This document shows, in pieces, positions 11,595-12,800 of a DNA stretch of 64,000 bases (its first letter is position 1; every line of letters starts with the position of its first letter). The notes under the pieces are model-generated. The model was not told where the DNA came from, ran no database searches, and worked only from the letters and a program-made list of their open reading frames with translations. Origin of the DNA: Bacteroidota bacterium (GTDB lineage: Bacteria; Bacteroidota; Ignavibacteria; Palsa-1295); contig JAFDZW010000005.1 in NCBI GenBank assembly GCA_018266755.1, positions 1,625,963 through 1,689,962 of the forward strand, in the 5' to 3' direction. The position numbers and the translations under genes are program-made.

Positions 11595-11604
11595 ACCACT
11601 CCTC

Positions 11605-11682
11605 GTAGGGGCGACGCATGCGTCGCCCGGCGTTCGGCGGGGTGCTATGCGAAAGAACGGTCGAGGCATGCCTCGACCCTAC
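11605..11682. repeat. Double-palindrome repeat, family B, copy 2
   Basis: GTAGGGGCGACGCATGCGTC plus GCCC (11605-11628) and GGTCGAGGCATGCCTCGACC plus CTAC (11659-11682). It has the same plan as the copy at 804-876 and again lies just past the stop codon of a plus-strand gene. Confidence 0.85.
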
Positions 11683-11955
11683 GGAGAGTAGGGAGCGCGC
11701 TGACTTGGTCAAAATCCGACCTCCGGCGTTACTTTTGGCGGCCTGACGTGTTAATTAGTAGGAAGCAGACAATCCGGGGGTGAAAATTTCTTCATTTTCC
11801 CTGTGAAGGAAAACAACGGCCTCATAAATGTGTCTATATTTGTAGGGACGAGTTTTGCGAACCGTGTTCCCGAAACTTAATGGTTATTTAACCATATAAG
11901 GTATGTGGATAACTTTCTCAAGTGACTCCTGCTACAGAAAAAGTTGGAACGATTA
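11683..11955. other. AT-rich gap with palindrome and DnaA-box-like 9-mer
   Basis: No gene is visible. There is a TATATTTG at 11835-11842 without a matching -33 TTG. An inverted repeat TGGTTA-TT-TAACCA lies at 11881-11894. TGTGGATAA at 11904-11912 is a perfect DnaA-box 9-mer (reverse of TTATCCACA). The combination could be an operator region for the downstream sigma gene or a DnaA-binding spot; neither is shown. Confidence 0.35.
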
Positions 11956-11988
11956 TTGTGAAAGTAGGTCCAAAATGTCGTATCTTTG
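11956..11988 (+). promoter_or_regulatory. Bacteroidota-type promoter of ECF sigma gene
   Basis: TTG at 11956-11958 and TATCTTTG at 11981-11988 are separated by 22 bp, matching the -33/-7 consensus TTG-N(17-23)-TAnnTTTG. The transcript should begin near 11993-11995, about 147 nt before the ATG of the sigma gene. Confidence 0.7.
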
Positions 11989-11992
11989 CACG

Positions 11993-12074
11993 TTACTGAC
12001 GGAGGGAGTAGGCTGGTGCGTATAGCCAACCTACAACATTTTCCCCCACGAAAAGAAATCCCGATAGTCAGTAA
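11993..12074 (+). ncRNA. Candidate structured 5' leader of ECF sigma mRNA
   Basis: Starting almost exactly at the predicted transcription start, TTACTGAC (11993-12000) can pair with GTCAGTAA (12067-12074). Inside, GGGA (12004-12007) can pair with TCCC (12059-12062), and GTAGGCTGG (12008-12016) pairs with CCAACCTAC (12026-12034) with one C-A mismatch. The result is a closed multi-stem RNA of about 80 nt, followed by about 65 nt to the start codon. It could be a regulatory leader or a separate small RNA. I do not recognise it as a known riboswitch class. Confidence 0.45.
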
Positions 12075-12140
12075 TTCGCGTAGATACTAACGATAGGGTA
12101 CGGGCGCATTCGTTGCGCCAGATGGCAAAGGATAAGGATA

Positions 12141-12800
12141 ATGTTGGACGACAAATTGCTCAGGGATCGGCACCGAGACTTCGAACGTGAGGCAATGCCC
12201 CACGTGACGGCGCTGTATAACTTTGCGCTTCGCATGACGAGCGATCCCGATGATGCGAACGATCTCCTGCAGGAGACGTACATGAAAGCGTACAGGTTCT
12301 GGGACAAATTCGAACCCGGGACGAACTGTAAGGCATGGTTATTTCGCATCATGAAGAATTCGTACATCAATATTTATCGTAAGGAATCGAAAGAGCCCGA
12401 TAAAGTTGATTACGAAGACATCCAGAACTTCTACAATACGATCCGTTCGGAGTACACCGACCCGAACGACATGGAGGCACGCCTCTATCGTAACCTGCTC
12501 GATGACGATCTGACGCGCGCCGTCGAATCGTTGCCCGAAGATTTTCGCACGGTCGTGATTCTTTGCGATATCGAAGGCTTCACGTACGAAGAGATCGCAG
12601 AGTTCGTCGATTGCCCGATCGGCACGGTTCGCTCACGTCTGCACCGCGGCCGCAAGCTGCTTCGCTCGAAGCTCATCGAATATGCCCGCGTTCGCGGCTA
12701 TAATGTCGATGAAGAACGCCATCGCAAAACGAAGAAGGACCTCGAGTACGAAGAGTTCGGTACCAGCGCGCTCTCGACGAGCAAGATCCACAAGAACTGA
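12141..12800 (+). CDS. RNA polymerase sigma factor, ECF (RpoE-like)
   Basis: A 219-residue sigma-70 family protein of the ECF type. Region 2 is visible as YNFALRMTSDPDDANDLLQETYMKAYRFW...CKAWLFRIMKNSYINIYRK (about residues 27-80), and region 4 as LPEDFRTVVILCDIEGFTYEEIAEFVDCPIGTVRSRLHRGRKLLRSKL (about 131-179), including the recognition helix. A charged C-terminal tail of about 40 residues follows. No anti-sigma gene lies next door, which is unusual for classic ECF factors and fits single-gene Bacteroidota ECFs. It has its own TTG/TAnnTTTG promoter and a long structured leader. A hairpin terminator follows at 12829. Confidence 0.92.
   Translation: MLDDKLLRDRHRDFEREAMPHVTALYNFALRMTSDPDDANDLLQETYMKAYRFWDKFEPGTNCKAWLFRIMKNSYINIYRKESKEPDKVDYEDIQNFYNTIRSEYTDPNDMEARLYRNLLDDDLTRAVESLPEDFRTVVILCDIEGFTYEEIAEFVDCPIGTVRSRLHRGRKLLRSKLIEYARVRGYNVDEERHRKTKKDLEYEEFGTSALSTSKIHKN

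Follow-up and report, generated by a model that had tools for sequence, protein, structure and literature searches.

How is an ECF sigma factor restrained when no anti-sigma gene adjoins its own? For SigH/SigR-type sigma factors the textbook answer is a redox-sensing anti-sigma protein. A relative of SigH is encoded in the window (the whole 64-kb stretch of DNA that was analysed) of a 3.55 Mb genome, G000, whose relatives include Candidatus Kapaibacterium by name. In this family the sigma factor has been kept and no anti-sigma gene adjoins it; what is conserved instead is an element in the leader of the sigma gene. The comparison set comprises 13 genomes from five genera, and the family and the order hold the same 13. 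Eleven family loci (L031-L041) were taken as the same records as loci among these genomes. Covariation is testable on these 13 sequences only; viral contigs were searched for more relatives of the leader, and none were found.

The sigma factor has the architecture of an ECF protein, with only sigma-70 region 2 and region 4_2 (PF04542, PF08281). Its best match among solved proteins is M. tuberculosis SigH (169 bits). The best NCBIfam match is TIGR02947 (SigH_actino), at 197.4 bits, which is under the curated cutoff of 251.55 bits. Region 2 contains GTNxKAWLxRIxxNxYINxYRK, in near-identity to M. tuberculosis SigH. The protein also carries PIGTVRSRLHRGR, with an Arg at the position of a Met in M. 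tuberculosis SigH. In our reading this Arg is the equivalent of Met170 of C. glutamicum SigH, which makes the -31/-30 contact; C. glutamicum SigE has Arg185 there (PMC10012870, in the part available). A match to the sigma factor is encoded by all 61 genomes of the relatives search, and the 12 other genomes of the order have an orthologue at 91-96% identity.

The sequence-only reading had described a sigma gene without an anti-sigma partner, and the description holds for the 13-genome family: no anti-sigma gene adjoins it. There is no conserved gene 3' of sigma in the family. An OmpA/PD40 protein is encoded there in G000; other family loci have sucC-like, TetR-like, unrelated or opposite-strand genes (names assigned by eye). 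Outside this family 16 sigma orthologues were inspected, and in many of these the next gene encodes a small or a membrane protein. One of four such downstream proteins (L053) has a zf-HC2 anti-sigma zinc finger, and three are without an informative Pfam match. An anti-sigma factor may act from elsewhere in the genome. ECF factors without an anti-sigma are controlled by transcription and other means (available sections of PMC8999054); the word "riboswitch" is absent from the main text of that paper.

The proximal promoter had been called as TTG-N22-TATCTTTG, and the call stands (TTG at 11956-11958, N22, TATCTTTG at 11981-11988). It is sound because TANNTTTGC is over-represented in the 64-kb window, with 15 observed occurrences against 4.6 expected. 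Identity of the promoter between genera is 75% (20 nt ending with TTTG), and TAnnTTTG precedes the sigma gene in all 13 genomes. From this motif, the transcript would start at about 11993. A further, distal ECF-like promoter may lie approximately 90-115 nt upstream; it is recognisable at 12 of the 13 loci, by a pattern fitted after the loci had been viewed; the exact form GAAACT-N15-CGAATA is present at eight of them. Since the distal -10 is CGAATA or CGTC in most relatives, the sigma gene is probably driven by two promoters, proximal and distal. In F. psychrophilum, TAnnTTTG has been described as the -7 box, alongside an ECF motif with a CGT box, and because the median 5' UTR in that species is 24 nt (PMC9723704, available part), a leader of 147 nt is long for the phylum. 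The leader is not far longer than others in the window, as had been thought. Two of the 15 TANNTTTGC sites exceed it in their distance to the next ATG open reading frame: 168 nt at site 1584 and 182 nt at site 17436. Upstream of both promoters, GC-rich palindromic repeats (GGGCGACGCATGCGTCGCCC; GGTCGAGGCATGCCTCGACC) of a REP-like kind occupy 11600-11700, right after the FAD-oxidase gene.

Table 1. Features of the sigma locus; positions are counted from the first base of the window.
Feature	Position	Strand	Basis and remarks
Distal ECF-like promoter, GAAACT-N15-CATATA	11872..11898	+	weak -10 here; most relatives CGAATA or CGTC
Proximal promoter, housekeeping type, TTG-N22-TATCTTTG	11956..11988	+	motif; conserved between genera
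Outer stem P1, 5' strand, TTACTGAC	11993..12000	+	folding; lineage-specific; at the inferred transcript start
Inner closing stem, 5' strand, GGGA	12004..12007	+	folding
Hairpin GTAGGCTGG...CCAACCTAC, one mismatch	12008..12034	+	folding; varies between relatives
Conserved element as modelled (R1)	12020..12063	+	one copy per genome, in the sigma leader, 13/13
Box 1, CAACA (YAACA)	12034..12038	+	77% identity between genera; minus strand TGTTG, SigH-like -10
Antisense SigH-type promoter-like dyad, GGGATT-N19-GTT	12035..12062	-	one mismatch; in other leaders too
Box 2, AAAAGAAATCCC (GAAANRAATCCC)	12051..12062	+	77% identity between genera; minus strand GGGATT..., SigH-like -35
Inner stem, 3' strand, TCCC	12059..12062	+	folding; inside box 2
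Outer stem P1, 3' strand, GTCAGTAA	12067..12074	+	folding
ECF sigma factor gene, 219 aa	12141..12800	+	closest solved relative M. tuberculosis SigH

Between the proximal promoter and the start codon lies a two-part element, YAACA ... GAAANRAATCCC, which is found in the sigma leader of all 13 genomes of the order (12034-12062 in G000). Outside the two boxes conservation is lost: identity between genera drops to 20% over the 10 nt that follow AACA and is 26-42% in the remaining sequence outside the boxes and the promoter. The distance from the promoter to the end of AATCCC or AATCCT is 74-78 nt in 12 of the 13 leaders and 156 nt in L009. The L009 leader is longer by about 80 nt, which lie between promoter and element and contain hairpins; judging from this sequence, a change in length between the 5' end and the element is tolerated there. 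A leader peptide was considered and rejected, as the reading frame that crosses the element is interrupted by stop codons in L002, L003 and L004 (by eye).

In every one of the 13 genomes the R1 profile of the element retrieves exactly the sigma-leader site, at E 3e-6 to 0.023, and no other match lies below E 0.27. Because R1 contains the 13 sequences that it then finds, a held-out-genus test was run, and models trained without the genus under test give the element the top rank at every one of the 13 loci. A class search with R1 gave 13 of 294 genomes at E <= 0.01. Twelve are from the family and one, G095, is from outside it, where about three such matches are expected by chance at this threshold in 294 genomes. 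The G002 element was missed in the class search, under a stricter filter, and was recovered in the 13-genome profile search. At the gathering threshold Rfam has no matches in the window; at E up to 10 the only match is the MS2 operator hairpin (14.7 bits against 40, E 0.47), outside the element. By its position, conservation and uniqueness, the element is real, conserved and single-target. On the preferred reading it is a new lineage-specific leader element that would control the ECF sigma gene, probably at the RNA level.

Control at the RNA level had been proposed from the fold of this one leader. The proposal stands insofar as an element is conserved between promoter and start codon in all 13 genomes, but the exact stems named are not conserved. 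In G000 itself they are all where they had been placed: TTACTGAC with GTCAGTAA, GGGA with TCCC, and a hairpin with one mismatch. The 84-nt domain has an MFE of -28.4 kcal/mol and a z-score of -4.13, with none of 200 shuffles as good. The full 148-nt leader has a z-score of -1.96 (8 of 200 shuffles as good), and most pairs of the 84-nt domain are predicted in it at a pair probability near 1. Stability alone is not decisive, because equal or better folding is seen in 32 of 1114 GC-matched 84-nt windows of the 64 kb (approximately 3%). The strong fold is found mainly here and in the single same-genus relative; measured to 14 nt past the element, folding is strong (z -2.5 or lower) in three of the 13 leaders and ordinary in most relatives. 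Identity of the hairpin region between genera is 29-30%, which is the background level, and outer stem P1 is clearly cognate in four of the 13. On these sequence comparisons, the P1 stem and the hairpin named earlier are lineage-specific. A separate hairpin of the GGCGC...GCGCC type lies a short way ahead of the start region in the two same-genus leaders, at 12103-12120 here and in L002; the sequences differ, and no U-run lies behind it.

The reading tentatively preferred here, at a little under even confidence, is that the sigma leader carries a lineage-specific cis-regulatory element which acts as RNA. Transcription from the TAnnTTTG promoter would place the element at about +40 to +70. TCCC would pair with G-rich sequence close to the 5' end (in this leader GGGA) and close a domain at the start of the message; the AACA box and an A-rich strand would be left single-stranded as a conserved binding surface. 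In many relatives the first transcript bases may also pair with the segment before the A-rich strand, giving a pseudoknot of the H type whose third loop is A-rich. The AACA/A-rich surface would then bind a ligand, a protein or a small RNA, and this binding would set the amount of sigma factor and so replace the missing adjacent anti-sigma. We infer the pseudoknot, as well as the partner that would bind and the step at which output is set. A bolder version, in which a pseudoknotted leader RNA confined to one Kapaibacterium-type order took over the anti-sigma job and the message itself senses stress, is unlikely as a whole. Arguing for RNA are the contrast between the boxes (77%) and the spacer and flanks (20-42%), the constant distance to the promoter, and the single copy per genome. 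Arguing against it are a family-wise p of about 0.1 for the best pairing and the fact that two boxes with a random, fixed-length spacer resemble a DNA dyad.

The closing pairing is statistically supported, not proven. When 3' halves were swapped between leaders (chimera permutation), the cognate combination was the better at p 0.002-0.007 with 14-30 nt after TCCC included, and at p 0.07-0.13 with 8 nt. The signal comes mostly from L001, L002, L010, L011, L007 and L013. Duplex permutation tests gave p 0.03-0.05 with TCCC and 0.26 without it. The p-value for the closing pairing rises to 0.12 when both same-genus genomes are left out, and to 0.35 without those and L010. A strict GGG/CCC helix extension is not cognate (p ~0.24), and RNAalifold on MAFFT alignments of the leaders returned no common structure. 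L009, with its 80-nt longer leader, was excluded from the main MAFFT alignments and one later alignment; it was included in all permutation tests but one labelled "without L009". L012 was misaligned by MAFFT in one alignment set. As examples of helices that fit the possible pseudoknot, L003 can form UUCCU/AGGAA together with UUGGGGU/AUCCCAA, L011 can form GCCGAAU/GUUCGGU together with GGGA/UCCC, and L012 can form UCUGGA/UCCAGA. In L007, UCCU replaces UCCC and AAGGA replaces GGGA.

In a scan of 569 window pairs, the top score (z -3.58, family-wise p 0.098) went to the pairing of the 5' end with the segment directly ahead of the A-rich strand, which would be the first helix of the pseudoknot. 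The best z in another scan, of 766 pairs, was -3.49, where -3.89 is needed for 5% family-wise. In 12 of 13 leaders the joint pseudoknot score beats the average obtained with shuffled 5' ends (Stouffer -4.4), and it is cognate at p 0.0003; for both figures the windows were chosen after the scan. The segment before the A-rich strand has more than one possible partner, because in a second cluster it pairs with bases 21-41 (p 0.0006 for this window pair). At 37 C the predictions leave AACA over 70% unpaired in 10 of the 13 leaders and UCCC under 40% unpaired in 12; because one fixed AACA position was used, it is shifted by 2 nt in L004 and by 1 nt in L005. There is modest support for RNA pairing of TCCC with the 5' end, and this pairing possibly forms part of a pseudoknot.

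The same boxes can be read as DNA. Here and in most relatives the minus strand has GGGATT-N19-GTT[AG], one mismatch from the SigH promoters of C. glutamicum (GGAAt-N18-19-GTT; gGGAAta and t/cGTTgaa; PMC10012870, available part). The conserved element would then be an antisense SigH-type promoter read by the adjacent sigma factor itself. From about 12020-12028 the holoenzyme would transcribe leftward, and it would either run into sense transcription or occupy its path; such a self-limiting arrangement would replace the anti-sigma. The adjoining gene does encode a relative of SigH whose region 2 is almost identical, a coincidence to be taken seriously. The spacing is N19 in 11 of 13 leaders (N18 and N17 in the remaining ones), the spacer is random (20% identity), as is typical of promoters, and HrpL-RNAP blocks its own promoter in Pseudomonas (PMC8999054, in part). 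A leftward gene is present in some genomes, doxX at seven of seven genus-3 loci, but L001, L002, L003 and L012 have none, and doxX starts 360-517 nt away, mostly with a GAAACT-N14-16-CGTA promoter of its own. At the -35 contact the sigma factor carries Arg in place of the Met of SigH, the sense distal GAAACT-N15-CGAATA is a competing autoregulatory site, and the constant distance to the sense promoter would be unneeded. A regulon was sought with GGGATT-N18-20-GTTR, a spacing scan, and tighter and start-anchored patterns, and no genome-wide set emerged. GGGATT-N18-20-GTT just before ATG has 167 matches in the 13 genomes against 187 at the control spacing N24-26, no N19 peak is seen in G000 (read from the match list), and the R1 profile yields one copy per genome only. 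A tight dyad pattern has 24 matches, 11 of which are sigma leaders; the genes around all of them were inspected. The genes around 16 dyad matches in the source genome were likewise inspected, with no excess before starts; a few dyad matches lie 12-16 nt before ATG (L122, L196, L198). A dispersed repeat with GGGATTCTTCGCTTCGCTCAGAATGAC is present on several G000 contigs and confounds GGGATT searches. The DNA reading is weakened, since no regulon of the GGGATT/GTT dyad was found elsewhere, and since there is no excess of GGGATT-N18-20-GTT before starts the antisense promoter is ranked second, after RNA. We regard it as a serious rival, of a probability somewhat below that of the RNA reading.

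Two fixed boxes, a random spacer and a fixed promoter distance would also suit a DNA operator at which a repressor or an activator binds on the downstream side of the promoter. Read directly, neither box repeats the other, in direct or in inverted orientation. No second copy is present in any of the 13 genomes, and its regulator would therefore be single-target; such an operator is improbable. The strong fold of the window may simply be chance stability without function, with only the promoter and the start codon mattering. The 32 equally stable windows and the weak folding of most relatives agree with this. Chance may explain the z-score of the window, not the conservation, and two boxes in 13 of 13 leaders are left without an explanation; that it accounts for the locus is quite improbable. 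A stress-type sigma gene with a structured leader had also brought to mind an RNA thermosensor that masks the start codon, and this suggestion is not supported. No common helix closes the start region, which is predicted to be 44-76% unpaired at 37 C across the 13 leaders. Predicted opening with temperature is gradual: in L001 the unpaired share of the region goes from 37% at 15 C to 62% at 37 C, and relatives show similar or smaller changes. The conserved boxes are also far from the start, and a thermosensor is barely credible. No intrinsic terminator-like site was found in 11850-12200 of the window. Since the start is not masked by a helix and a terminator was not found, an expression platform is not in sight; as neither attenuation nor a thermometer can be seen, AACA and the A-rich strand, both predicted to be single-stranded in most leaders, would on the simplest RNA reading be a binding surface for a protein or small RNA.

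H-type pseudoknot riboswitches with an A-rich strand include preQ1-I, preQ1-II and SAM-II. The leader element resembles these in its possible interlocked short helices, in the A-rich strand before the last helix strand, and in its place at the 5' end of the message. It differs in having no Rfam match, a single gene target and no visible expression platform, and the gene suggests no ligand; the comparison was tested against Rfam. SigH/SigR-type promoters (GGAAT-N18-19-GTT) are matched by the minus-strand GGGATT-N19-GTT and by an adjacent sigma factor related to SigH. They differ in that the element is antisense with one mismatch, Met is changed to Arg in the -35 helix, and no regulon was found. 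As in the negative autoregulation of HrpL, sigma holoenzyme could occupy the control region of its own gene; unlike here, where occupancy is hypothetical, HrpL blocks a sigma-54 promoter (PMC8999054, available sections). Streptomyces sigR is under translational control via a GTC start codon, which is likewise an extra message-level layer on a SigH/SigR-type sigma factor; as described in the available part of PMC5472188, that control acts through the start codon and IF3, with no leader element. In the available portions of the literature on Kapabacteria riboswitches, ECF leaders, sigma thermometers and Bacteroidetes ECF factors without anti-sigma, the element is not described. An RNA switch or a self-limiting antisense promoter would, if true, each be an alternative way to restrain an ECF sigma factor.

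The doxX gene adjoins the sigma gene divergently at the seven genus-3 loci (L036-L040, L007 and L035). The conserved element was considered as its promoter and rejected, as doxX is far away and mostly has its own. A GAAACT-like box (GAAACA in one case), N14-16 and CGTA precede doxX at six of the seven loci (by eye). With a GAAAC-type ECF-like promoter of its own, doxX is likely a target of the same sigma factor. Together with the distal GAAACT-N15-CGAATA, these GAAACT-like promoters before doxX look like better candidates for the sigma factor's own promoters.
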